58,612 nt of DNA from a virus: positions 1 to 58,612 of IMG/VR virus record IMGVR_UViG_3300027833_000058; one strand, written 5' to 3'. The notes below the pieces were generated by a model, which was not told where the DNA came from, made no database searches, and was given only the letters and a program-made list of their open reading frames with translations. Within the stretch, counting starts at the first letter, position 1. Each line of letters begins with the position of its first letter. Shown here in pieces: positions 5,194 through 55,255 of the stretch. The position numbers were made by a program, and so were the translations under genes.

Positions 5194-5763
5194 TTAGTAT
5201 TCCTTGATCTTTTTTTCGATTGCAGTCATGATCTTATTGTGAGTTTTACTTAAGTATCTATCTTTTCTAAGGCGAGCTAATGCGACTCTTGTTTGATCAG
5301 CATATCTTTTCTGAAATTCAGGAGGTCTTGTATCAATATCTTGTACGTTGGCAAGACGATCTGCAAGCTTAACTACTAATGCCCAGCTAGACATCTTAGC
5401 CATTTTACCAGCAATATATTCACCTTTACCGACGGCGTCTGATGCTGCTTTATCTGTAGTTAATTGCTGAACCATATCTGCTACTAACGCACCAAATTGT
5501 TTAACTAAATCGGAGTATGTGGTATCAGTATCTTCTAGTGTATCATGCAAATAAGCTGCTTGGATCATAGCAGTAAGGTTATTTGATTTTTTGAATTTAG
5601 CAACAAACCTAGCAACTTCTTTAGGATGTTCAATGTACTGCCCACCACTTTTTCTAGATTGGCCAGAATGCGCTGCCGTTGCAACTCTTAGTGCTTTGAG
5701 TGCACTTTCATTCATAGATTGATCGTTAACGCCTTCACTAATGAAAGTCTTAAAATTAAGCAT
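5194..5763 (-). CDS. SpoT/MESH1-type HD phosphohydrolase (ppGpp hydrolase-like)
   Basis: The protein has 189 residues. Residues about 26-140 form an HD domain of the RelA/SpoT hydrolase type. Seen are HSGQSRKSGGQYIEHP (R37, H46), YLHDTLEDT (H73, D74, E77, D78) and KLADRLANV (D135), so the metal- and substrate-binding set of (p)ppGpp 3'-pyrophosphohydrolases is complete. There is no synthetase, TGS or ACT domain, as in MESH1-like small alarmone hydrolases. The N-terminus MLNFKTFISEG fits the T4 capsid targeting sequence with an I-x-E|G cleavage site. It may therefore be packaged and injected to cancel the stringent response (inference). An HD enzyme acting on another nucleotide is the alternative. 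Confidence 0.85.
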   Translation of the reverse strand: MLNFKTFISEGVNDQSMNESALKALRVATAAHSGQSRKSGGQYIEHPKEVARFVAKFKKSNNLTAMIQAAYLHDTLEDTDTTYSDLVKQFGALVADMVQQLTTDKAASDAVGKGEYIAGKMAKMSSWALVVKLADRLANVQDIDTRPPEFQKRYADQTRVALARLRKDRYLSKTHNKIMTAIEKKIKEY

Positions 5764-7339
5764 TTGGAGTATCTTTTTTAAACTTATTAACTAACTCATC
5801 AGTGCCTTCTTCGCCAGCACCAGATTCTTTTTTCATAGCAATTAATTCAGAAGGTTTATGATTCATTGTCTTTTTACCAACACCAACCTTAACACTATCT
5901 TTAGTAACACTCAGAACTGTACCAATTCCGCCGTGCTTCATTTTAACTTTAGATCCTTCAGGAAACTGAGATGCCATTTGCGCAATTTGCTTGCGTAGAT
6001 TCTCATCTAGGTTCTCTTCTTTTTTAGCATTAAGCTTATCTCTTAAAGCTGCAATATCTTTTTTGATTGAATCTTTTTGTGGTTTAAAATGTTTGCTTAA
6101 AGGATTATCTTTCTTTACATCATTTGCTTCTTCAGTTGATTCTATTAAATCAAATATTTCTTGACTAACATCTTCAGTAACATGCTTTTTCTTAAACATT
6201 TTGAAACGTGCATCTAATTTTGGTTTATTATTTTTATCTAATAACATGTGTGGTTTTTTTAAAACTCTTTGATCTTTAATAGATGCTTCGTTAATATCTT
6301 CTTTCTTAACTACTGATGAAGAAGATCCACCGCTCATCATTGACTTACGACGCTCACGTTCTTTTTGTTTAACTACGGGTAATAATTTACGAGCAATTTG
6401 TTCTATACGCTTCTTATTAAGTTTAGAGATACGCTTATCAATTACTTCTTTTTCACCAGCCGATAGGTCAGCATAACGTCTGCTCTTTGAAAACTTTTTC
6501 TTAAATATATTAATAGCAGCTTTACGTGCTCTTCCTTTTAATACTTCTTGAGAAGCTGTTCTTTTCTTAGCTTTTTCTCTGCCACGTTTAATCTTAAAAC
6601 GGGCTTTCCTCATAGCAAGACCACGTTTACGTCTTTGCATACGGTTTAAAACTTCTGATATATCATTTGTTTCTTCTGTCATATTCATACCTTTACGTAC
6701 TGCTGTCATAATAGCTTTAGCAGATGATCTTAGCTTTTTAGGTAAACCTTTTGTAAACTGTAGAATATCGTTTTCAACGGCTAATGCTCTCATTTTAGAA
6801 GCAGACATTCCATCTACATTATCTGAGTCTGGATCTCTAGCACCAGCAGAAACTACTGCAATCGAATCAAAAGAATAATCTTTACCATTGTAATCATTTA
6901 ATAATTGTTTGAATTGATTAACTCTATCTGATCCAACAACCATTATAAGATTATCAAATTTCTCAACAGCTTGTAATACCTTAACGATAGTATTTGCCGG
7001 AGACTTTTGAACGATAGGACCAAATGCTTTTTGCGCAAACTTTACCTTATCGTTATACTGTAACGGGTTTTTCTTTTTGTCATTAGAATGAGTTAAGAAT
7101 ACCATAGGAGTTGCTTTATATTTTTTAGCAACCGTTATCATTCTTTGTACTAACAACTCGTGGCCAGCAGTAATAGGATTCATTCTTGCAAATGTAATTA
7201 CTACAGTACTACCTGCAGCTTCCTTTATTCCACGTCCACGATCATGATCGTCAAGCTCAGGTTCTATGTTGATAAATTTACTTCCATCAAACTCTTTAAA
7301 ACCTTTTACTTTTTTCTTTTTATCTTCTGGCTGGGCCAT
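5756..7339 (-). CDS. nucleotidylyltransferase-domain protein with long basic tail
   Basis: The protein has 527 residues. Residues about 44-210 form an HxGH-type nucleotidylyltransferase fold. FARMNPITAGH (TAGH at 57-60) is the nucleotide-binding signature, VGSDRVNQF follows in the middle, and MSASKMRAL corresponds to the ISxTxxR motif. This resembles NMN or pantetheine-phosphate adenylyltransferases, but the substrate cannot be read. Residues about 230-340 are extremely rich in Arg and Lys. A small beta segment near residue 455 (SKVKMKHGGIGTVLSV) looks like an SH3/KOW module. It overlaps the HD hydrolase gene by 8 bases and has a late promoter box at 7378-7385. Confidence 0.8.
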   Translation of the reverse strand: MAQPEDKKKKVKGFKEFDGSKFINIEPELDDHDRGRGIKEAAGSTVVITFARMNPITAGHELLVQRMITVAKKYKATPMVFLTHSNDKKKNPLQYNDKVKFAQKAFGPIVQKSPANTIVKVLQAVEKFDNLIMVVGSDRVNQFKQLLNDYNGKDYSFDSIAVVSAGARDPDSDNVDGMSASKMRALAVENDILQFTKGLPKKLRSSAKAIMTAVRKGMNMTEETNDISEVLNRMQRRKRGLAMRKARFKIKRGREKAKKRTASQEVLKGRARKAAINIFKKKFSKSRRYADLSAGEKEVIDKRISKLNKKRIEQIARKLLPVVKQKERERRKSMMSGGSSSSVVKKEDINEASIKDQRVLKKPHMLLDKNNKPKLDARFKMFKKKHVTEDVSQEIFDLIESTEEANDVKKDNPLSKHFKPQKDSIKKDIAALRDKLNAKKEENLDENLRKQIAQMASQFPEGSKVKMKHGGIGTVLSVTKDSVKVGVGKKTMNHKPSELIAMKKESGAGEEGTDELVNKFKKDTPNA

Positions 7340-7376
7340 AGTTAAATCCTAAGATGTAATTTGAGTCAATATTGCT

Positions 7377-8060
7377 TTATTTATAAAATCTTTGAAAAGA
7401 AGGTATAAAATTATAATTTCTGGCTGCTGAATCTGTCCAAATAGTTGATTTTCTTAACCATCCCATTGCTGGTGTAGGAGATGCTATTGATAATGGAACA
7501 ACTGTTCTTCTTTGATTTAATATGAAGTAATCGTTATCAACGGCGCTTCTTACACCCTTTTCAAGTAATTCATCTATTAATATTTGTGCAGTTTTTTTAG
7601 TCATAGCATAAGCATGTGCACCTTCGTGACCTGCTATTTTAATAAGTTCTGTTGGTGGTCCTGCAGATGTTGAATCATATCTGCTAGGATCTTGCAACTT
7701 GTATCCAAGTGTTACAATTTCATTGTCTGGTATATTTATTGTTATTGGGTGTAGCATTATAGCATCGTGCTCAAGTATCACTCCAACCTCATCTGGCCCA
7801 TCTGCGATGGCTTTCCAGATAGCAAAGTGTCCTGCAGTACAGCACATCGCTTTATCAGCAGGACTAGGAGATTCAATGTATTGATATTCTTCAACAACGC
7901 TGGTTCTAAGTCCAATTTTCCTAAATGCCATTCTACCAGACATGTTCTGAAAACCATTAACTACTACATATTCTAAATTTACTTTACGGCAAGACTCAGC
8001 ACATATGCTAGCATACTCGTTTGATACAGGAGTATCTATTTTTAAAATGTAAGCTTTCAT
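7377..8060 (-). CDS. glycosyltransferase family 25-like protein
   Basis: The protein has 227 residues resembling GT25 (LOS/LPS-type) transferases. The N-terminal MKAYILKI strand is followed by CTAGHFAIWKAI, equivalent to the conserved SH-x-W/L helix, and by the metal-binding-type VILEHDA motif (EHD 97-99). It would transfer a sugar from a nucleotide sugar, acting in the cytoplasm on host surface glycan precursors, phage DNA or a virion protein; the acceptor is unknown. It abuts the next glycosyltransferase without a gap, which suggests they act in the same pathway. Confidence 0.75.
   Translation of the reverse strand: MKAYILKIDTPVSNEYASICAESCRKVNLEYVVVNGFQNMSGRMAFRKIGLRTSVVEEYQYIESPSPADKAMCCTAGHFAIWKAIADGPDEVGVILEHDAIMLHPITINIPDNEIVTLGYKLQDPSRYDSTSAGPPTELIKIAGHEGAHAYAMTKKTAQILIDELLEKGVRSAVDNDYFILNQRRTVVPLSIASPTPAMGWLRKSTIWTDSAARNYNFIPSFQRFYK
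7378..7385 (-). promoter_or_regulatory. late promoter box for the nucleotidyltransferase and ppGpp hydrolase genes
   Basis: TATAAATA on the minus strand, 39 bases before the start at 7339. Confidence 0.65.
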
Positions 8061-8714
8061 TTAAGTGCCTTCGCTATAGCCTTTAATCTGCAAGCCTGCA
8101 CCAGTTGAGCCGAAATATTGTTCAGCATATACTTTTCCTGGACCGTCATATCTAGTATTAGATCCGTACCATTGTGGTATTAGAGTATACGAAGGCCAAA
8201 TAGTAACTGAGTTACCAATATAAGGAAGCAAGAATTTAGATAAGAAAAAGTTACCAGTTGAAATATAAGGGTGATCACTTAACTGGTTTGGTCTTAATCT
8301 ACTTAGGTGATCAATAATAGCACCTGTTACTACATTACCTGCATTAGCAGCAAGAATAGGAGAACAATATCCTGGCTTTGCTTTTTCACTTTCATAGACT
8401 GTATATGCATGATTAGCAGGACTACTAAATAATTCATCACATCTTTCTAAACATACTGAGTCTGCGGCTGGCCAAAACCCGCCTTGTTCGTGTATCAATT
8501 CATAACGAATTAAATCGTGTGCACCTGCGTACTTTTGTCTTCTGTAATATTCTTCAATTAAAGCTTGATTTTTCCATTTACGAGCCCATAACATTTCATC
8601 AGTGAATACACTATATTCCCAATCCGGATGTTTGTCTCGCCAAGTATTCATCCACTTCAATGGCGCTGGTTTAGGGCCAATCCATATGTGGGTCATTTTC
8701 TTTTCAATATTCAT
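8061..8714 (-). CDS. GT32-like glycosyltransferase with altered DXD motif
   Basis: The protein has 217 residues. MTHIWIGPKPAPLKWMNTW and HDLIRYELIHEQGGFW (residues 66-81) match the Gly_transf_sug (OCH1-like/GT32) family. In that family the segment is followed by a DXD that holds the divalent metal. Here the corresponding residues are A83-A84-D85, so one Asp of the DXD is replaced. Activity may be altered or the metal site rebuilt. A late promoter box lies at 8761-8768. It is paired with the GT25-like gene downstream. Confidence 0.7.
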   Translation of the reverse strand: MNIEKKMTHIWIGPKPAPLKWMNTWRDKHPDWEYSVFTDEMLWARKWKNQALIEEYYRRQKYAGAHDLIRYELIHEQGGFWPAADSVCLERCDELFSSPANHAYTVYESEKAKPGYCSPILAANAGNVVTGAIIDHLSRLRPNQLSDHPYISTGNFFLSKFLLPYIGNSVTIWPSYTLIPQWYGSNTRYDGPGKVYAEQYFGSTGAGLQIKGYSEGT

Positions 8715-8731
8715 TATATACCTCTTAATAC

Positions 8732-8757
8732 AAAAAAAGGTAGACTTTCGCCTACCT
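8732..8757 (-). terminator. terminator of the atpE-pseudoazurin operon
   Basis: On the minus strand AGGTAGGC-GAAA-GTCTACCT forms an 8-bp stem (one wobble) with a GAAA tetraloop, followed by TTTTTT. Confidence 0.88.
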
Positions 8758-8760
8758 CTT

Positions 8761-8768
8761 TATTTATA
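8761..8768 (-). promoter_or_regulatory. late promoter box for the glycosyltransferase pair
   Basis: TATAAATA on the minus strand, just upstream of the terminator hairpin, which would lie between this box and the start at 8714. Confidence 0.5.
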
Positions 8769-8782
8769 TTATTTTAGTGAAA

Positions 8783-8845
8783 CTACTTACCGCCTTTTTT
8801 CTTCTCACCTTTAGGCTTTACATAAGTGTGGTCTGGATCTATCAT
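8783..8845 (-). CDS. possible 20-residue basic peptide
   Basis: A short reading frame (MIDPDHTYVKPKGEKKKGGK) starts with ATGA overlapping the stop of the pseudoazurin gene, the spacing typical of translational coupling in this genome. It ends 25 bases before a strong terminator. It is too short for any family assignment and could be noncoding. Confidence 0.35.
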   Translation of the reverse strand: MIDPDHTYVKPKGEKKKGGK

Positions 8846-9282
8846 AGGTCAGCCAGTACGATTAACGCTTTAAGCTTTTTCTTTGATTTACCTTTTACTT
8901 TAACATCTTTTAAACGATCCTTGGCTTCACCATCTGGTTTACCTACAACAACAATTGCAATCATGCCCATAGACTTATGCGGTGAACATTGATATAGATA
9001 CACACCTGGTACATCAAATGTAATTGCAACTTCTTTGTTTAGCTTTGATTTCTTTGGTGCTTTCCAACCGTCTGGGCCAGAGATAAACTCTACGTTATGG
9101 CCTTTTGATGTTGGTACCCAAGTAATAGTCTCGCCTACTTCGATACGTGTAATGTCTTCTGAGTAAACCATTTTGGCTCCATCATCACGTTTGTTTAACA
9201 TTTCAACTGTTACGTCGGCGTGTGCTGCAGTCACGGTAAATACTGCTGCGAAAATTGCTAGATAAAAGTATAAAGTGTTCAT
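8842..9282 (-). CDS. pseudoazurin-like type I blue copper protein, exported
   Basis: The protein has 146 residues. Residues 1-22 are a signal peptide ending AAHA, so the protein is periplasmic. The mature part aligns with pseudoazurin: VEMLNKRDDGAKMVY, VGETITWVPTSKGHNV, then QCSPHKSMGM. The four copper ligands are visible as H62, C99, H102 and M107. Pseudoazurins carry single electrons between the cytochrome bc1/c pool and terminal reductases or oxidases. The Lys-rich tail after residue 115 is longer than usual. It is the last sizeable gene of the operon that carries ATP synthase subunit c. A strong terminator follows at 8732-8757. Confidence 0.93.
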   Translation of the reverse strand: MNTLYFYLAIFAAVFTVTAAHADVTVEMLNKRDDGAKMVYSEDITRIEVGETITWVPTSKGHNVEFISGPDGWKAPKKSKLNKEVAITFDVPGVYLYQCSPHKSMGMIAIVVVGKPDGEAKDRLKDVKVKGKSKKKLKALIVLADL

Positions 9283-9290
9283 TGTATATC

Positions 9291-9425
9291 CTAACTTGTT
9301 TTGTACATGTTGTGTTTGAATTCTGAGATTTCATTGGCTTTATCATTCATGCCCATATCTCTTAACTGTTTAATACTCATACAGTAACTACGATATTCCA
9401 TTAGTTTTAAAAATCTTGTAAACAT
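9291..9425 (-). CDS. 44-residue protein, possibly DUF1127-related
   Basis: A small open frame with a good Shine-Dalgarno (GAGGAAACGCA before ATG at 9425) lies between the 73-residue membrane protein and pseudoazurin. It contains SIKQLRDMGMNDKANEI, which faintly recalls the ELxDIGIsRxDI core of DUF1127. That similarity is weak. Its position and ribosome site support it being a real gene of the operon. Confidence 0.5.
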   Translation of the reverse strand: MFTRFLKLMEYRSYCMSIKQLRDMGMNDKANEISEFKHNMYKTS

Positions 9426-9440: not shown

Positions 9441-9662
9441 TTACATCTTTTTACAGTCAAAGACTGATTTTTCTAATTGTACTGGTACACCGCCTTTTGC
9501 GATACATACCTCTTTCCAGTTTGGCTCATTAAACTTTTGAATTACTGCATAGAACCCGAATGCTGTACATATTAATAATAATGAAGTCATTACCACAAAC
9601 ATATAGAAGCCTAACTTCTGTACGACTTGGGCTGATATTTCAATATGTTGATCGCCTACCAT
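9441..9662 (-). CDS. 73-residue single-pass membrane protein next to subunit c
   Basis: Residues about 17-41 form one membrane helix (FYMFVVMTSLLLICTAFGFYAV). The C-terminal region has two Cys (VCIAKGG and FDCKKM) that could form a disulphide if periplasmic. The start codon overlaps the stop of the ATP synthase c gene as TAATG, so translation is coupled. No family is recognised. The coupling suggests it works with the phage c subunit, for example in membrane insertion or ring modification (inference). Confidence 0.7.
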   Translation of the reverse strand: MVGDQHIEISAQVVQKLGFYMFVVMTSLLLICTAFGFYAVIQKFNEPNWKEVCIAKGGVPVQLEKSVFDCKKM

Positions 9663-9886
9663 TAGATGGCAAACATTAATAAGAGTGCTACTAAGAATGC
9701 AAAGATTCCTAATGCTTCTGCAAATGCAACTCCTACAAACATTGTGCCAGTATCTGGCTTCTTAGGCATTACCTTTAGTACACTACCTACAATTATTCCT
9801 ACGCCGATGGCTGCGCCACCCATACCAATTGTTGCTAACCCTGCGCCAATTAAGGCACCCATTGTTGCTATATCACCTGTAATCAT
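9662..9886 (-). CDS. atpE: F0F1 ATP synthase subunit c homologue
   Basis: The protein has 74 residues, the normal size for subunit c. Helix 1 (about residues 8-36) has the Gly/Ala pattern [21 protein letters not shown]. Helix 2 (about 48-74) contains the proton-binding carboxylate E57 in [19 protein letters not shown], closely resembling alphaproteobacterial c subunits. The polar loop, normally R-Q/N-P and contacting the F1 stalk, reads MPKKPD here, so the conserved Arg is replaced by Lys-Lys. The protein could join the host c-ring and change proton coupling (inference). Both ends are coupled to neighbours by TAATG. Confidence 0.93.
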
Positions 9887-10092
9887 TATTTGCTCTCCAC
9901 CATTAATCTTCTTGCTTCTTCTACATACCCTTGACGGTATAACTCACTAGCAGCTCTTGCTCGACCTGCTGATTCACCAAACGCCCATAGGAACATTCCT
10001 GTTGCTACGATTGCTTTACTTAATATTTTTAAAGTTGTTTTTAAAGTTGTTTTTAAAGGATTGCTTACATATTCTGCATTTGCTAATTCCAT
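9886..10092 (-). CDS. 68-residue small protein with a hydrophobic segment
   Basis: The N-terminal part contains [13 protein letters not shown], encoded by a threefold direct DNA repeat (TTTTTAAAGTTG-like). A short hydrophobic stretch follows ([13 protein letters not shown]), then a basic amphipathic helix ([25 protein letters not shown]). The protein is unrecognised. The start overlaps the stop of the DUF1127 gene and its own stop overlaps the atpE start, both as TAATG. A role linked to subunit c is inferred from this strict coupling only. Confidence 0.65.
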
Positions 10093-10370
10093 TATACGAA
10101 ACCTCTTAAGTTAGGATTCCTACGTACTGGAGATCTATCACGAAGATTATTATCTTCCCAAGTATCATTAGCAATAGAACGAATATCACCACGGCTAATG
10201 CCGATGTCGTTGAGTTCTCTGTCTGTTAGTTTGTGGAGGGATTTAAATGTTTCGCGCTGTTCTTTCCATTTAGCAATTGCTGCTGAACGATTTTCAAAGA
10301 ACATTACAACCTTGTAGGCTGCAACTGCGAGAATGGATGACTGTGATGAAATGTTGTTAATGTGTAACAC
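10092..10370 (-). CDS. DUF1127 (YjiS-like) protein
   Basis: The protein has 92 residues. Residues about 33-66 form the DUF1127 domain, with the diagnostic LTDRELNDIGISRGDI segment. The family is abundant in alpha- and gammaproteobacteria, especially alphaproteobacteria, where small Arg-rich DUF1127 proteins have been tied to regulation of nutrient uptake and RNA metabolism. It is the first gene of the atpE operon and supports an alphaproteobacterial host. A long inverted repeat lies upstream at 10432-10529. Confidence 0.85.
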   Translation of the reverse strand: MLHINNISSQSSILAVAAYKVVMFFENRSAAIAKWKEQRETFKSLHKLTDRELNDIGISRGDIRSIANDTWEDNNLRDRSPVRRNPNLRGFV

Positions 10371-10431
10371 GGAATTCCCTTTCCTAATAAATGTTTCATT
10401 GTTTTACAATAATATTTATTTAAGAAATAGG

Positions 10432-10532: not shown

Positions 10533-10724
10533 TTATTCATCTGGATCATCTAAATCTGGATACTGATCAGGGAATTGTTCTTTATGTGCTGCAAGCATTA
10601 ATGCCTCAGTATCAAACTCCTGTACAGTAGCGTCATCACGATACGATACAACATTAGATTCACTTAATGAAATTGCTCCATCGTTGATAATAAAATAGCC
10701 TTCTGTTTTAGTTAATATAGCCAT
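10533..10724 (-). CDS. 63-residue acidic protein downstream of the repeat protein
   Basis: The start chosen is ATG 10724 (MAILTKTEGYF). It overlaps the stop of the repeat protein as TAATG and has GGAGGAAC upstream, so the longer in-frame start at 10754 is unlikely. The protein ends in an acidic FPDQYPDLDDPDE tail. It is unrecognised. Small partners downstream of fibre-like genes are often assembly factors, but nothing here proves that. Confidence 0.6.
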   Translation of the reverse strand: MAILTKTEGYFIINDGAISLSESNVVSYRDDATVQEFDTEALMLAAHKEQFPDQYPDLDDPDE

Positions 10725-12400
10725 TACGCTGTTCCTCCATCTGAAATTGTCCATCCGTCTGTACTAATTAGATTAGCTCTTGCTGCTTCTGCAGCACCAC
10801 CTGCGGTGTATTGACTGTACCCAAAGTGAGCAGACAGACCATCAAATGGATCCTGAGCATCCCAGTTGATTAAAAGTGCATCATAACGTGCGGTGGGTAA
10901 TGTTACACTACTCATAAAGATATTCAAAGCATAGGTACTGTTAAGGGCTTCAATATTAAAGTTCTCAACGCCATTGATATCTGTGAGACTGGAGCAAGAT
11001 GTGAACATCATTGACATATTTGTAACAGATGATGTATTAAAACTACTTACATTGAGTGATGTGAGACCGGAGCAAACCATAAACATTTGACTTATATTTG
11101 TAACAGATGATGTATTAAAACCACTCACATCGAGTGATGTAAGACTTCGACAATTATAAAACATCACGCTCATATCTGCAACACTTGATGTATTAAAACC
11201 ACTCACATCGAGTGATGTAAGACTTCGACACTGTGTAAACATCCTGCTCATAGTTATAACTGATGAGGTATCAAAATTACTTACATCGAGTGATGTGAGA
11301 CTGAAGCAATTATAAAACATATTATTGAAATGGGTAGCAGATGATGTATTAAAGTTGCTCAAATCAAGAGACGTGAGATCATACATTCGATTAAACATAC
11401 CACCAAATCCAATGCCAGAAACAGATGAGGTATCAAAACTACTTACATCGAGTGATGTGAGACTTCCACAATCATAAAACATGTTGTACATAGTTATAAC
11501 AGATGAGGTATCAAAACTACTTACATCGAGTGATGTTAAATCTTTATTTTCATTGAACATATAGCTCATATCTGTAACAGATGAGGTATCAAAGTTACTC
11601 AAATCAAGCGTTGTTAAATCTCTACAAGCGTGGAACATTCGCAGCATATTTGTAACAGATGAGGTATCAAAACTACTTACATCAAGCGTTGTTAGTTTGA
11701 TCATAACGAACATATAGCTCATATCTGTAACAGATGAGGTATCAAAGTTACTCAAATCAAGCGTTGTTAGTAGATGAGGACCATTGAACATTCCATGCAT
11801 ATTTGTAACAGATGAGGTATCTGTAACACCAACATTAAAGCTAGTCATGTTACCACATGACTTAAATGCGTTTACAAAGCTTTGCCAGCCGACTGTACCA
11901 AGGTTAGTTACTGTGATGACTTTTCCAGCGTTTGTTGAATTGTTACCAAATTTGATATTAGGGAACGTACCACTGATACTGATTGAGTGATCTCCAGCCG
12001 ATGCGTAAGTATGTGCTAGATTAGAATCATTATATGTTGTAACTGTAGATGATGAACCATCACCCCAATCAACAGTTGCGTTAAATGTTCCTACATTGTC
12101 ACAAGGTATGGTAAATGTCTCGCTGGCTGCTGTAGTCCTAACGGTCATGTCAAATGATGTACTTACATCATCCTCATCACCTCTTGCGTCCCAAAAGGAT
12201 TTACTTAATTCACCTCTGCTTGTATCAGCAGTATCACCAACTCTACGAACTTTAATATAAGTTAGTTGAACACTACCACCGGTAGGTGTAAATGTTCTAA
12301 TACCTGATACACATGATCCGTTTGCACCAACACAATCTGCTGACGTGGCCATATCATCATATTCCCAATCAGGGCTATTTGGAATTGCTACCCATGTCAT
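10724..12400 (-). CDS. BspA-like (DUF285) leucine-rich repeat protein with PKD-like domain
   Basis: The protein has 558 residues from ATG 12400. That start overlaps the upstream stop as TAATG and has GGGTGGA as Shine-Dalgarno. Residues about 95-150 contain VDWGDGSSSTVTTYND and HTYASAGDHSISI, a PKD-like beta domain. From about residue 175 to 500 there are roughly a dozen repeats of about 25 residues of the form FDTSSVTDMSYMFxxCxxLTSLDLSN, the BspA/DUF285 type. Such repeats occur in surface adhesins, so a virion surface or receptor-binding role is likely. There is no signal peptide. Confidence 0.8.
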   Translation of the reverse strand: MTWVAIPNSPDWEYDDMATSADCVGANGSCVSGIRTFTPTGGSVQLTYIKVRRVGDTADTSRGELSKSFWDARGDEDDVSTSFDMTVRTTAASETFTIPCDNVGTFNATVDWGDGSSSTVTTYNDSNLAHTYASAGDHSISISGTFPNIKFGNNSTNAGKVITVTNLGTVGWQSFVNAFKSCGNMTSFNVGVTDTSSVTNMHGMFNGPHLLTTLDLSNFDTSSVTDMSYMFVMIKLTTLDVSSFDTSSVTNMLRMFHACRDLTTLDLSNFDTSSVTDMSYMFNENKDLTSLDVSSFDTSSVITMYNMFYDCGSLTSLDVSSFDTSSVSGIGFGGMFNRMYDLTSLDLSNFNTSSATHFNNMFYNCFSLTSLDVSNFDTSSVITMSRMFTQCRSLTSLDVSGFNTSSVADMSVMFYNCRSLTSLDVSGFNTSSVTNISQMFMVCSGLTSLNVSSFNTSSVTNMSMMFTSCSSLTDINGVENFNIEALNSTYALNIFMSSVTLPTARYDALLINWDAQDPFDGLSAHFGYSQYTAGGAAEAARANLISTDGWTISDGGTA

Positions 12401-13635
12401 TATTTCATCCACCCTTTAATGTATTTGTCTGAAAAGTTTGCGTTACTAAATTCAAGTCTATCAATTAATTTAACTGCGTTCTTACCCATCTTATCGATAG
12501 CAACAAATCCTTCTTGGGATGTTACTTGGTAACCGTCTGCAGTTCTAAGTAGTGTGCCAACTTGCTTTGCTTTATCTAATTTTTGAATTACTTTATGTTT
12601 AGCATCAATGATTAGATTATATAATTCGAATACTGCTACTAATTGAGCAGGTTTTGTTTTTCTAAAATATTCTAACGTAGCATCTCTTTTACCACGTTGT
12701 GCTACTTTACCTTTTTCAGATTTACGTTTCTCTTCTTCGTTCTTATAGAATCGAGTAATGTAGTTCTGTAAATCTCTTACGAATGCTTTTGGATTCTTAA
12801 TTCTTTCGCCAGCACGGATTTTAGTGTTAACGAATACTTTTGTTTTTGCAAGAGTATCTGGTTCTAATGCAATACCGTCAAGTGTTTCTTTACGGATTGT
12901 TCTAAATAATTTACCAGCAGAAGATAGAATCTTGTTAAGCTCTTCTGTTTCTTTCTTTGTAAAGTTTGCTGTACCTGATATATCTTGGTAAGATGCGTCT
13001 ACTGACCAGACCGATTTTGTTCTCTTAAGATCAGAAGCAATCTCCTCTCCAAAACTTGCAGACATTTCTTCAAAGCTTGATCCTCTGTAGACTGTGTGCC
13101 ATACCACACCGACCTTGGATCCGAGAATTTGTTTGCCGAGTTCTGAGTTCTTAGGTACCGCGTAAACAATCGTATTAGGATGGAAAGTAATGTGCGGTTC
13201 ACCTTCAATATCCACCACCTTGAGATCAGCCTTATCATATAAAAAATCACCTTGTACTACGCCCTTGATACCGAGTTTTGAAAACTCAGCCAGTGCTAGC
13301 TTTAATTTAGAATTTAAACTATCTTTGCCTACTGTATCAGCATCGATATCTGCATTAGTCTTATATACCATTGGGTTCTTATTAAAGATACCCTTCTTAG
13401 CAACGAAGAACTTACCATCTGATGGATCAGTTCCACAAAATATAGCAGGAGCTCCGTCCCATTTAACCGAAACATTAACTTTGGATTTAGCAGTGCCGGC
13501 TAACATATCTCTCAACGAACGTAAGAAATTGATAGCGTCTCTTGTGCCATTTACACCGTGATTCAATATAGAATCTTCAAGATGTTCCATATGCGTGTTT
13601 TTATTTTCAGTAATATACTGTTTGAAGCCGTGCAT
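12400..13635 (-). CDS. DUF6267-like protein with ligase-type KxDG motif and targeting-like N-terminus
   Basis: The protein has 411 residues. VSVKWDGAPAIFCG near residue 60 matches motif I (KxDG) of nucleic acid ligase/adenylyltransferase folds. GVVQGDFLYD near 140 could be motif III/IIIa and GIALEP near 255 motif IV/V. Together they suggest a covalent nucleotidyltransferase, such as an RNA or DNA ligase, belonging to what I recall as DUF6267. The start MHGFKQYITEN fits the T4 capsid targeting pattern with an I-x-E cleavage site, so the enzyme may be carried in the head. Activity is inferred from motifs only. Confidence 0.65.
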   Translation of the reverse strand: MHGFKQYITENKNTHMEHLEDSILNHGVNGTRDAINFLRSLRDMLAGTAKSKVNVSVKWDGAPAIFCGTDPSDGKFFVAKKGIFNKNPMVYKTNADIDADTVGKDSLNSKLKLALAEFSKLGIKGVVQGDFLYDKADLKVVDIEGEPHITFHPNTIVYAVPKNSELGKQILGSKVGVVWHTVYRGSSFEEMSASFGEEIASDLKRTKSVWSVDASYQDISGTANFTKKETEELNKILSSAGKLFRTIRKETLDGIALEPDTLAKTKVFVNTKIRAGERIKNPKAFVRDLQNYITRFYKNEEEKRKSEKGKVAQRGKRDATLEYFRKTKPAQLVAVFELYNLIIDAKHKVIQKLDKAKQVGTLLRTADGYQVTSQEGFVAIDKMGKNAVKLIDRLEFSNANFSDKYIKGWMK

Positions 13636-21280: not shown

Positions 21281-21309
21281 ATTATACTATGTAATAGTAG
21301 CTTTGTCAA
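21281..21309 (-). promoter_or_regulatory. early promoter before the 62-residue gene and bilin reductase
   Basis: GGTTGACA, 17 bp, TATAAT on the minus strand. It overlaps the end of the heme oxygenase gene. Confidence 0.78.
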
Positions 21310-21856
21310 CCATTTCTTTTGAAAGTTCATCAAATAATTCTGAAGCAAAATCAAAACATATTTTTGCCTCATCAGCCATATCGTCTGATAACAATGTTCT
21401 AAACTGTTCAATAAGAACTTTAGTGTCACCTTCGAATTCGTACATCAAGCCATTGCCTGGAGTTTTCTTTTTGATAATTTGTCCACCGTGTAATTCACCA
21501 AAGTGGCGAACATACATATGCGCAAGTAAAGCTTCGTTATCATCAGCTTCTGCTAATCCATTAACATATGCTGCATACTTACTTACTGATGGAGGAAACA
21601 CGCCTGTAGGAGAGTAACCGAAGACTTCTTCTAGTTCTCTAATATCTTCAAAGATACGTCTATGACGTTTGATAGCGTGTAAGTTTGGGGGGATGATAGT
21701 GTGTCGTTCTAGTACTTCGTAATTCATGTACTGACAACATAGGAATTTGTGATACAAGGCTGTATCGATTTTTCCTGAAATAAGTTCTTTAGCAAATGCT
21801 CTTCGCTCAGCAGACTGATGGTGAGCCCAAGTTAATTCTTTCAATTTGTTTGACAT
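21287..21856 (-). CDS. heme oxygenase
   Basis: The protein has 189 residues. The proximal heme ligand is H13 in AHHQSAERRAF, matching the family HxxAE motif. The distal helix motif is GELHGGQIIKK. The enzyme opens heme to biliverdin, CO and iron. It is followed in the same unit by the bilin reductase, giving a heme-to-phycobilin route. It could also serve iron release alone. The gene starts just after the tmRNA coding piece and may be transcribed from the tmRNA promoter. Confidence 0.92.
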   Translation of the reverse strand: MSNKLKELTWAHHQSAERRAFAKELISGKIDTALYHKFLCCQYMNYEVLERHTIIPPNLHAIKRHRRIFEDIRELEEVFGYSPTGVFPPSVSKYAAYVNGLAEADDNEALLAHMYVRHFGELHGGQIIKKKTPGNGLMYEFEGDTKVLIEQFRTLLSDDMADEAKICFDFASELFDELSKEMVDKATIT

Positions 21857-22507: not shown

Positions 22508-22560
22508 TGTTACCGGCAATAGCAAACTGTTACCGGTAACACTTGTAACAAATTGTTACA
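22508..22560. repeat. cluster of GTTAC/GTAAC palindromes after the phosphate permease
   Basis: TGTTACCGGTAACA (22528-22541) is a perfect 14-bp palindrome. TGTAACAAATTGTTACA (22544-22560) is an 8-1-8 inverted repeat reaching into the permease stop. A third half, TGTTACCGG, is at 22508-22516. This is either a run of operator sites or an elaborate 3' hairpin; there is no T-run. Confidence 0.6.
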
Positions 22561-23515
22561 GTCCGTTGGGAACGATAACATAGTGGATCATAAGTACTAG
22601 AGCAACCGAAGCGCCTAGACCAATCATCATTTTCATAAAGTCTCTTCCAACTAATGGGAATACACTCTTGAACTTCATCTTGCCAGTAAACGATGCAATA
22701 GCAAGTTCACGTCCTGCAAGCATACCAACAAATACCCACGTTGTCGACATTGGAATGTCATTAAGTTCTTTAAAGAAGTATAGACACAACCAGTAGAATA
22801 AGTCAATCAATGTTGCAGATCTTACATATCTTGTATTGTGTTTCTCTAATACAATTTCTTGTATCTTACCTCCACGTTCTCTAAACATAAAGAACAATCC
22901 AATCACGAATACACCACTTACCATAATCATTAGATCTACTGGTACTTCTCTCGGAAGGAACACTGCAATGTTAGCCATATCGTGAGACAACCAAGTCCAC
23001 CATAAACCACCTGTTGCAAACCACTGAGCAATTCGCCAATAGTTTTTATGTTCTTCTTTAACTGGTGCTGCTTCATCAAGTGTTCTACTTATAACATACC
23101 ATGCTGCATAAGCAAACAAAGCTGCAATACCGTATCCCATAATAGATTTCATTAGCATTTTTTCCAACACAAAGGTTGAAGCAAACACAGATAATACTAA
23201 AAATGATGTTGAAACAGGTACACCAAAACGTGTTAATAATACAAGTATGCCTGGTGCGGCTGCATGATACCACTGGATTTCTTGCCACGGAATTTTGTTT
23301 AATCTACCGTATGATATATCACCGCCATTTACAACCCATCCATACCAAAGAGTTGCTAATAGTACTGCTGATGCAGCAATCCATAATGTTTTATAATTAT
23401 ATCTCTCATTGTTTGATGCCATCCAAGTACCGAGAGTCTGTACTGAATCGTTAGCAATAACTGCGTATGCAGCAAATAGGAACCCGACAAGGCTCCATAA
23501 AGTTAACATTTCCAT
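22556..23515 (-). CDS. PiT-family inorganic phosphate transporter
   Basis: The protein has 319 residues with about eight hydrophobic segments. The family signature appears twice in inverted-repeat fashion: AVIANDSVQTLGTW near residue 19 and LSHDMANIAVFLPR near 180. TRFGVPVSTS and NDIPMSTTWVFVGML are the paired substrate-loop motifs. PiT permeases bring in phosphate as a metal-phosphate with protons or sodium. The protein is shorter than bacterial PitA. Together with MazG next door it points to phosphate or nucleotide economy during infection. A terminator lies upstream and a palindrome cluster downstream, so it forms its own unit. Confidence 0.88.
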   Translation of the reverse strand: MEMLTLWSLVGFLFAAYAVIANDSVQTLGTWMASNNERYNYKTLWIAASAVLLATLWYGWVVNGGDISYGRLNKIPWQEIQWYHAAAPGILVLLTRFGVPVSTSFLVLSVFASTFVLEKMLMKSIMGYGIAALFAYAAWYVISRTLDEAAPVKEEHKNYWRIAQWFATGGLWWTWLSHDMANIAVFLPREVPVDLMIMVSGVFVIGLFFMFRERGGKIQEIVLEKHNTRYVRSATLIDLFYWLCLYFFKELNDIPMSTTWVFVGMLAGRELAIASFTGKMKFKSVFPLVGRDFMKMMIGLGASVALVLMIHYVIVPNGL

Positions 23516-47916: not shown

Positions 47917-48243
47917 ATGGCTATTACATTATCAGCTGCTGCTGAAAAACATATTATCAGAAATCTATCTGAGCGAAAGCAAGGTGTGGGTGTCCGTCTT
48001 GGTGTTAAAACTACGGGATGCTCTGGTCTTGCTTATGTGATAGAATTTGTAGATACTGCTGAAGAACAAGACATTCTTTATAAGTGCGGCGAAATAGATG
48101 TGTTTGTTGATCCTAAAAGTAATGTGTATTTAAACGGAACTCAATTAGATTTTGTTAGAGAAGGTTTAAACGAAGGATTCATATTTAAAAATCCTAATGT
48201 AAGTGCTGAATGCGGATGTGGTGAAAGTTTTACAGTAAACTGA
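47917..48243 (+). CDS. iscA: A-type Fe-S cluster carrier (IscA/HesB family)
   Basis: The protein has 108 residues. The three cluster-binding Cys are present as C35 in TTGCSG and C99, C101 in ECGCGESF. It inserts Fe-S clusters into apo-enzymes. It could support the phage's two radical SAM proteins and the ferredoxin-dependent bilin reductase (inference). No Shine-Dalgarno is visible; the gene follows the GNAT-like stop by 11 bases. Confidence 0.92.
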   Translation: MAITLSAAAEKHIIRNLSERKQGVGVRLGVKTTGCSGLAYVIEFVDTAEEQDILYKCGEIDVFVDPKSNVYLNGTQLDFVREGLNEGFIFKNPNVSAECGCGESFTVN

Positions 48244-53066: not shown

Positions 53067-54137
53067 ATGTGGTTTAATAATTATGAACGTGGTAAGCTCA
53101 CGTTAGATATAGAGCTTACCACAAATTGCAACGCGAAGTGCCCTCAATGTACTCGTACAGATACTGATAATAACCTTAATAGAATGTCGTGGCTAAAACT
53201 TAACCAAGTTTCAATCGACGATTTTAAGTCGTGGTTTACTCTGTCAGAAATCCAAAAAATTAAGCAATTCCATTTCTCAGGCACGTATGGTGATCCTGGA
53301 ATGTGCAAAGACTTGTACTTGATAGTAGAACATATTATTAATAATTCAAATGCGCATGTTTCTATTAACACCAACGGTGGTATGCGAGATGCTGACTTTT
53401 GGTTTGATTTGGGTGCTATTGGCCAAAAGCGTTTATCATTAATATTTGATGTTGATGGTATTAATCAGGAAATGCATCAGTTTTATAGAAGAGGTGTTAA
53501 ACTTGAAAAGGTATTAGAAAACCTCGAAGCTGCAGCAATGACCCCTGCTAAAATTGAAGTGCTTACTGTGTTATTTAAACATAACGAAGACTACCTTAAT
53601 GAAATACAAGAAATGTGCAGAGACTTAGGCGCAACTCACTTTGATAGTGTTGAAGGTAATAACTTTAAAGCTGGTCCAATATATAAATTTAATAATGAAC
53701 AAGGTAAGCCTGAACAACTAGAACAAATTATTAAAATAGAAAGCCATCAAGACGCAGCCAGACTTGACCGTAGAGTAAGAGATCATAGGCACGAAGCTGT
53801 TGCTAAAAATATTAAATGTGCGGCAGCCGAAAACTTTAATTTAAAAATTAATAGCGATGGAATGATTACACCGTGTTGTTATGTTTCAACAGCATTGGGA
53901 TGGGCATCAGGTATGCGAGACACTCATCCCATAGATGGTTATATAACTGATAGCGGAAATCATGGCGATGATATTAATCCGTTAATGAAAGAGTTTGTTG
54001 ATAGACGTGATGATTTTACATTAGGTAAAACTCAATTTGAAACAATTTTAAAAGATTCGTGGTTTTCTAAACAATTAGAAGAATCATTTAAATCTAGACC
54101 AGCGTTTGCTTGTAAAAAGGTGTGTAGTATATGTTAG
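53067..54137 (+). CDS. radical SAM protein with SPASM-type C-terminus (first of a tandem pair)
   Basis: The protein has 356 residues. CNAKCPQC near residue 20 is the CxxxCxxC [4Fe-4S]-SAM motif. HFSGTYGDPGM and INTNGGMRDADFWFDLG match radical SAM core strands. KCAAAENFNLKINSDGMITPCC and CKKVCSIC supply auxiliary-cluster Cys. Such SPASM enzymes modify peptides, proteins or sugars. It overlaps the next gene by 7 bases. Confidence 0.85.
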   Translation: MWFNNYERGKLTLDIELTTNCNAKCPQCTRTDTDNNLNRMSWLKLNQVSIDDFKSWFTLSEIQKIKQFHFSGTYGDPGMCKDLYLIVEHIINNSNAHVSINTNGGMRDADFWFDLGAIGQKRLSLIFDVDGINQEMHQFYRRGVKLEKVLENLEAAAMTPAKIEVLTVLFKHNEDYLNEIQEMCRDLGATHFDSVEGNNFKAGPIYKFNNEQGKPEQLEQIIKIESHQDAARLDRRVRDHRHEAVAKNIKCAAAENFNLKINSDGMITPCCYVSTALGWASGMRDTHPIDGYITDSGNHGDDINPLMKEFVDRRDDFTLGKTQFETILKDSWFSKQLEESFKSRPAFACKKVCSIC

Positions 54138-55255
54138 CAGCTTGGGACTCAAATGACATTAGTGTCTTTATGGATATATCAACATATTGTAATGCTGGGT
54201 GTCCACAATGTCATAGGACAGATAACAACGGCTTGGGTAAAGTTGATTGGTTACCATTAGTACAATGGACAATTGATCAATTTAAAACTGCGTTCTCTGC
54301 AAAAACTATGAGTCATATTAAAAGATTTCATTTCTGTGGTACGTGGGGCGATCCCATTATGGTTAAAGATATTTTAAAAATTGTTAAGTACATTATTCAA
54401 TATAGCAATGCTCGAGTATCATTTGATACTAACGGAAGTATGCGTAGCGAAGAATTTTGGTGGGACCTCGGAGTATCTGGTGGTGATAGATTAACGTTGC
54501 GCTTTGATGTTGACGGTATTAATCAAGAGATGCATCAACACTATCGTAGATTTACAGACTTAAGTAAAGTTCTTAATCATATGAGTATTGCTTCACAAAC
54601 AAATTGTAAAGTTGCTGCTCAAACTATTTTGTTTAAACATAACGAAGATTATAAAAATGAGATTAAATCTTTATGCGAAAAGCATGGATCTAAAGCTCAC
54701 GTATTTGTATCAAGCGACAGATTTAAACCCGGCCAAAACGCAACACAGCACACAGATGAAAACGGTAATGCTTTTATACTCGAAAAAGCCGGTACTAAAG
54801 TTATAGCAACGGACAATATAATACCTGTTAAATCAATTAAAGAACAACCAAAAAATATTGTAATACCTGTTAAGCCAGCACCAGTTAAAGAACAACCAAA
54901 GGTATCTGCAGCAGTAACTCAACCAAAACATGATATTGAGTGTGCTTGGGCTAAACCTCGTAATGAAATTATAGTAAGCTATGACGGTCAGGTGTTACCT
55001 TGTTGTTATCACCAAAACAATTATCATACAAATAGAAATTACTTTATAGACAGAGATCCATTATATACAGAATACGAAGATAATAAATTAAAATATAATG
55101 TTTTGCACGAACCTTTAAAAGATATTATAGATAGCAAATGGTGGAGCGGCACACTTGTTGATAGCATAGCAAACAATCCCATAAGAACTTGTATTGTAAA
55201 CTGTGCTAAGAAAACAGGTAATGCTAAAAACCAAAAAAGAGTACATATGAAATGA
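54131..55255 (+). CDS. radical SAM protein with SPASM-type C-terminus (second of the pair)
   Basis: The protein has 374 residues and is a clear paralogue of the previous one (CNAGCPQC; HFCGTWGDPIM; FDTNGSMRSEEFWWDLG; FDVDGINQEMHQ). It contains an extra Pro/Lys-rich linker near residues 230-275 with a duplicated IPVK...KEQPK unit. The auxiliary Cys are CAWAKPRNEIIVSYDGQVLPCC and CIVNCAKK. The two may form a heterodimer or act in sequence. Confidence 0.85.
   Translation: MLAAWDSNDISVFMDISTYCNAGCPQCHRTDNNGLGKVDWLPLVQWTIDQFKTAFSAKTMSHIKRFHFCGTWGDPIMVKDILKIVKYIIQYSNARVSFDTNGSMRSEEFWWDLGVSGGDRLTLRFDVDGINQEMHQHYRRFTDLSKVLNHMSIASQTNCKVAAQTILFKHNEDYKNEIKSLCEKHGSKAHVFVSSDRFKPGQNATQHTDENGNAFILEKAGTKVIATDNIIPVKSIKEQPKNIVIPVKPAPVKEQPKVSAAVTQPKHDIECAWAKPRNEIIVSYDGQVLPCCYHQNNYHTNRNYFIDRDPLYTEYEDNKLKYNVLHEPLKDIIDSKWWSGTLVDSIANNPIRTCIVNCAKKTGNAKNQKRVHMK

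Follow-up and report, generated by a model that had tools for sequence, protein, structure and literature searches.

A phage operon encoding a Rhodobacterales-derived ATP synthase subunit c with a rewritten loop

The 58.6-kb IMG/VR virus record IMGVR_UViG_3300027833_000058, a T4-like virus fragment analysed here over all of its 58,612 nucleotides (hereafter the window), carries an operon of four small genes, one of which encodes a homologue of subunit c of the F-type ATP synthase. Judged from sequence relationships, this phage AtpE is a host-derived gene of single Rhodobacterales origin; its proton site is intact, and the loop of its hairpin has been rewritten. We propose, at a probability of roughly 0.45, that the phage AtpE would cause a dominant uncoupling or retuning of the host FoF1 by way of hybrid rings.

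Layout and distribution of the operon

The window contains T4-type genes for a gp43-like polymerase, a DnaB-type helicase, UvsX, a single-stranded DNA-binding protein, a UvsW-type helicase and a tail tube, and the operon is read from its minus strand in the order DUF1127, p68, AtpE and p73, each of the three junctions being a one-base TAATG overlap. The ORF coordinates reproduce exactly the four-gene chain described in the first-pass annotation of this DNA. The features of the operon and its immediate surroundings are as follows.

10413..10419, minus strand: ATAAATA, resembling a T4 late promoter and lying 49 bases before the operon (motif match; suggestive only)
10092..10370, minus strand: gene 1 of the operon, a small DUF1127 protein of 92 aa that starts at GTG (PF06568, E 4.1e-12)
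9886..10092, minus strand: p68 small protein (ORF; without an assigned family)
9662..9886, minus strand: AtpE, 74 aa, homologous to subunit c of the F-type ATP synthase (PF00137, E 6.3e-13)
9752..9769, minus strand: rewritten loop codons, residues 40-45, M-P-K-K-P-D (by ORF position)
9441..9662, minus strand: p73, with one predicted transmembrane helix and, after it, a two-cysteine beta hairpin (ORF; without an assigned family)
9291..9425, minus strand: p44, a 44-aa ORF downstream of p73 (kept in 36/85 contigs)
8842..9282, minus strand: exported cupredoxin, pseudoazurin/plastocyanin-like, downstream and in the same direction (PF00127, E 1.2e-15)

The transcription unit of the window may extend beyond p73 into p44 and the cupredoxin gene, the latter being found in a minority of relatives. 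Of the 50 relatives inspected, a minority have a motif resembling ATAAATA upstream of the operon, one also precedes the tail-tube gene of the window, and the enrichment of this T4-late-promoter-like motif is weak. A reading of expression timing from a late promoter was set aside on account of this weak enrichment and of the presence of the operon in the replication regions of other phages.

Several other genes of the window are recorded here in their own right. Just upstream of the operon lies a gene for a 562-aa DUF285/leucine-rich-repeat protein (10724-12412, minus strand; PF03382, E 3e-60), and elsewhere we observed a SpoT/MESH1-like HD_4 domain protein that possibly acts on (p)ppGpp (5194-5763, minus strand; E 3e-17), a heme oxygenase (21287-21856, minus strand; PF01126, E 6e-20) in a phage showing no sign of a cyanobacterial host, an A-type iron-sulphur cluster carrier (47917-48243, plus strand; PF01521, E 2e-19), and two adjacent radical-SAM-like proteins with further ORFs after them (53067-55255, plus strand; the second just below the Pfam cut-off), possibly a surface-modification cluster.

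Scans of IMG/VR with AtpE returned 84 further viral contigs in 75 metagenomes (85 contigs with the window), among which the four-gene order recurs, as the first-pass annotation had proposed to look for; because there are 84 further contigs and the order is kept wherever a contig continues, a chance arrangement is excluded. The flanking by small proteins, also pointed out earlier, proved to be constant among related contigs. Thus p73 adjoins AtpE in every contig running past AtpE, the four contigs that lack it ending at or just after AtpE, and a separate p73 scan of viral contigs found p73 only beside AtpE; DUF1127 lies upstream of AtpE in all related contigs that extend far enough, and the only places without p68 are the starts of contigs and class III (see below). 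One base is shared at the AtpE/p73 junction in 57 of 81 contigs, and the DUF1127-p68-AtpE junctions outside the window are not always of one base, overlaps of 8-11 bases being common.

The carriers were divided into three classes. Class I, comprising the window and most of the contigs, is T4-like and has the loop MPKK, and class II (L206, L209, L210, L212-L214, L218 and L069) is largely T4-like. Class III (L207, L208 and L211) has genes for a DnaB-type primase-helicase, a ribonucleotide reductase and a glutaredoxin, together with a terminase of about 71% identity to those of the Ruegeria phages DSS3_VP1/PM1 and a primase nearest to those of Roseobacter phage CRP-7 and DSS3_VP1/PM1. The hosts of the carrier viruses are probably marine Rhodobacterales. 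In L209 the operon sits in the replication region, between the genes for Hsp20 and DNA polymerase (gp43); Phage C48C1, whose polymerase makes it the closest deposited relative, shares this flanking order but has different genes where the operon would be.

Upstream of the operon, L212 and L213 each have a PstS-like gene pointing the opposite way. The L212 segment (5393-9378, minus strand), in which PstS-like and ABC-transporter genes have two membrane-protein ORFs between them, is transcribed away from the DUF1127-AtpE operon and is apparently a pstSCAB set. In L213 the PstS-like gene and the AtpE operon are adjoined by a gene for a multi-pass membrane protein (6990-7961, minus strand), and the window has another (22556-23515, minus strand); both proteins are very weakly phosphate-permease-like (PHO4, E 0.19) and look alike by eye across the two phage classes.

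Among 50,697 deposited phage records we found no relative of the window AtpE, of the class III AtpE or of p73, and for one class II AtpE weak, doubtful matches only (E 0.05 or worse); no cultured phage with the AtpE set was present in the collection searched. In addition, no a, b or alpha/beta subunit rose above the family cut-offs in 19-20 long virus records (up to 221 kb, many of them fragments). A whole phage ATP synthase was rejected on this ground, and for motor function the phage AtpE would have to rely on subunits of the host, as far as these records, rather than whole genomes, show.

Origin of the phage AtpE and constraint on its loop

Over its whole length the AtpE of the window matches PF00137 (49.2 bits against a curated cut-off of 24), and its best relative of solved structure is the c subunit of Paracoccus denitrificans (PDB 5dn6, E 8e-17). 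Structure prediction gives a hairpin of two helices, residues 3-39 and 46-73, that turns at MPKKPD (mean pLDDT 77); a Foldseek search of this model against the PDB gave no match, the hairpin being too short for the search to inform. The earlier description as a full-length subunit c is valid only if a deletion in the loop region is allowed for, which in class I is five residues shorter than in host proteins by alignment.

The alignment set the 45 distinct phage sequences beside 134 cellular ones, namely 66 from Rhodobacterales and the remainder from other Alphaproteobacteria, N-type included. The helix-2 carboxylate, E57 in the window, is intact as had been claimed, the glutamate being present in 45/45 phage sequences and in all 179 aligned sequences. 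At nearly every one of the roughly 24 outer-helix columns, no phage residue occurs that host proteins lack. The glycine-repeat motif of helix 1 is mostly kept, but G37 and G39 (alignment columns), which are fixed in host sequences, are replaced by A or S, the former in 42% and the latter in 20% of the phage sequences. In the tree, a single branch (97/86) within Rhodobacterales AtpE separates all the phage sequences from the rest; with 78 columns, finer detail of this tree is not reliable.

Selection on the gene is strong. The median dN/dS is 0.087 for AtpE, 0.18 for p73, 0.38 for p68 and 0.42 for DUF1127, and no AtpE copy in related contigs has an internal stop. Decay in related phages, which according to the first-pass annotation would have told against its interpretation, was thus looked for and none was found (dN/dS about 0.09), and the reading of the gene as a decayed copy is ruled out by this ratio together with the frozen loop described next. 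The gene is both kept by selection and nested among host sequences, as is expected of an auxiliary metabolic gene.

The loop itself reads K38-V-M-P-K-K-P-D45 in the window, and R-N-P is absent. The motif [R/Q/K]-[N/Q]-P is found in 134/134 cellular versus 0/45 distinct phage sequences, and phage residues in the loop columns are hardly ever those of host proteins. In class II the loop is of host length, with R-N replaced by small plus hydrophobic residues and followed by P-H-R-S or P-S-K-S, and in class III it is recoded, [RQK][NQ]P being absent. No part of the protein is more constrained than the four MPKK codons of class I (pN 0.004, pS 0.875, pN/pS 0.005), compared with a pN/pS of 0.066 in helix 2 and 0.168 in helix 1, and because of this difference we consider the class I loop to have been rewritten and then frozen, not decayed. 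In classes II and III together the loop ratio is 0.56, a much weaker constraint, so the frozen loop is a property of class I. What had been noted as an altered loop can now be put more sharply, R-N-P being wholly absent from one Rhodobacterales-derived phage clade and its replacement frozen in the main class. This loop change suggests that the activity of the phage AtpE is altered relative to that of the host protein.

Genes accompanying the phage AtpE

The long form of p73 has a conserved W49, C53, GGVP (GGIP in one case, L218) and DCK (mean pLDDT of the predicted structure 73), and in 24 class I contigs a short form lacks the hairpin. No relatives of p73 were found in Pfam, the PDB or 298 host-family genomes, and a fold search against the PDB gave no useful match. 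The p68 of the main class has an N-terminal hydrophobic stretch, and its C-terminal helical segment is conserved (G-x-x-RAA-x-EL-x-R-x-G-x-x-EEA-K/R); Pfam and the PDB gave nothing for it beyond weak TPR-like matches, and the 298 host-family genomes a single marginal match (E 9.7e-4), nothing convincing.

The first gene product matches PF06568 at 46.1 bits (cut-off 23.3). Host DUF1127 proteins (CcaF1, YjiS and the Agrobacterium SDPs) have RNA or membrane sensor kinases, PhoR among them, as binding partners (PMC12501420). The phage protein shares their DUF1127 domain, and phosphate-uptake genes adjoin the operon in L212 and L213; it differs from them in being phage-borne, at 92 aa.

The identical MPKK loop co-occurs with hairpin-bearing as well as short p73, and likewise with two p68 types. 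Since MPKK coexists with two very different forms of p73 and two types of p68, its constraint probably arises not in these two proteins but in AtpE itself, at the membrane surface or through a component of the host. Co-adaptation of the loop to p73 or p68 is not favoured, and the earlier suggestion that the two small proteins are its physical partners is weakened accordingly.

Candidate functions and their meaning

We propose that the operon provides a phage-specific rotor subunit, derived from Rhodobacterales atpE, for the host F-type ATP synthase. With both its ring-forming helix and its proton-carrying outer helix host-like, AtpE would be able to join host c subunits in a ring and to run against the host's subunit a, while the loop by which host c-rings hold the gamma/epsilon foot of F1 is shortened and rewritten, and each phage subunit in a ring would be a spot without the normal F1 grip. 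Entry into the host Fo ring with a changed F1 coupling is the reading we prefer because the membrane faces are conserved and the F1-facing face has been replaced under selection. The effect is expected to be dominant, with proton flow partly uncoupled or retuned from ATP turnover during infection, and respiratory back-pressure would be relieved or normal F1 coupling stopped. As a membrane protein with a disulphide-type hairpin, p73 probably serves insertion, assembly or gating, and DUF1127 and p68 would be accessory.

R/Q substitutions in the loop of E. coli subunit c lead to uncoupling, and Steed and Fillingame reportedly found in 2014 that this polar loop gates the passage of protons to the cytoplasm. 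Because the extreme constraint on MPKK shows that the loop does something specific, a simple loss-of-contact poison is not the sole reading, and in class II, given the kept loop length, proline and nearby basic residue, F1 might still dock, if in a changed way. We also entertain, as a tentative idea that falls short of being likely, a dedicated host-takeover module: once in the host ring, the rewritten c subunit, aided by p73, would detach F1 or gate it anew, so that proton flow in the host is no longer coupled to ATP. A point against uncoupling is that the gain to the phage from an uncoupled infected cell is not obvious.

The loss of the loop could also mean that F1 is not needed at all, and that a phage-only c-ring together with p73, its constant small membrane partner, leaks protons or ions, e.g., for depolarisation, lysis timing or the exclusion of other phages. 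A purified c-ring without F1 does conduct ions as a channel, which F1 closes (PMC9433415), and the late-type promoter motif upstream of the operon in the window would suit such a role; nevertheless we consider it unlikely, since a host-identical outer helix with E57 is expected only of a ring working against subunit a, and the phage records yielded no such subunit. Moreover, the operon lies in other phages in the replication region beside Hsp20 and gp43, not in a lysis cassette, and the endolysin gene of the window is 8 kb away, which, with the strongly conserved proton site, also speaks against a holin or pinholin. Distinctly unlikely in our judgement is a motor that remains coupled and is merely retuned, in which hybrid or all-phage rings of changed subunit number alter the H+/ATP ratio and the loop still docks gamma/epsilon. 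The strong constraint on the loop, the basic residue retained near its tip and the relaxation of G37/G39 to A/S, a change linked to larger rings (PMC5376962), are all in its favour, but every cellular c subunit examined, N-type included, keeps [RQK][NQ]P, and an exceptionless loss in phages, with a class I loop five residues shorter, is hard to square with normal docking.

A more ordinary explanation is that the phages carry an auxiliary metabolic gene that tops up host subunit c, the loop change being neutral. The single Rhodobacterales origin, the strong purifying selection and the host-like energy and redox genes nearby (cupredoxin and heme oxygenase) would fit, but a motif lost in all phages, kept in all cells and frozen in its replacement is not a neutral pattern, and p73 is a constant partner confined to phages, so this explanation appears very improbable. 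As for an artefact of assembly or contamination by host DNA, earlier reports of virome ATP synthase genes were discussed together with such contamination (PMC3877843); here T4-type phage genes surround the operon in the window and its relatives, 85 contigs carry it, p68 and p73 are essentially absent from host genomes and the loop is unlike every cellular one examined, and we regard contamination or a chimera as refuted, leaving it a negligible chance.

Compared with subunit c of Rhodobacterales and Paracoccus denitrificans (PF00137, 5dn6), its closest relatives by sequence (56-71% identity), the phage protein shares the two-helix hairpin, the E57 site and a nearly identical outer helix, and differs in its shorter (class I) or recoded (classes II and III) loop, in its relaxed helix-1 glycines, and in being encoded outside an atp operon and paired with p73. 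The N-type ATPase c subunit (c17 ring, Burkholderia; PMC5376962) is likewise diverged with relaxed helix-1 glycines, but N-type rings retain a Q/R-Q-P loop and come with a whole operon. Within the part of the literature that we searched, and so far as the source describes it, a single earlier mention of phage-encoded ATP synthase subunits was found, a metagenomic GOS cyanophage clone reported second hand to carry a, b and c subunit genes (PMC3877843). The present gene resembles this clone and other phage auxiliary metabolic genes as a host-derived energy-metabolism gene in a marine phage; it differs in being subunit c alone, with a rewritten loop and a phage-only partner gene, and in representing one transfer spread across several phage lineages. 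In that same part of the literature we found no conserved phage operon with a c subunit that stands alone and has a rewritten loop.

Host photosynthesis and carbon metabolism are known to be fed by phage-borne genes; the phages described here carry only the proton-translocating rotor subunit, with its membrane part host-like and its coupling loop rewritten and frozen. Were the host-takeover reading true, it would constitute a class of anti-host mechanism absent from the literature searched. If the proposal holds, these proteins would be natural separation-of-function rotor variants with which to examine how the c-loop gates and couples proton flow, a long-standing question of bioenergetics, and phages would have direct control over the way in which abundant marine bacteria couple respiration to ATP.
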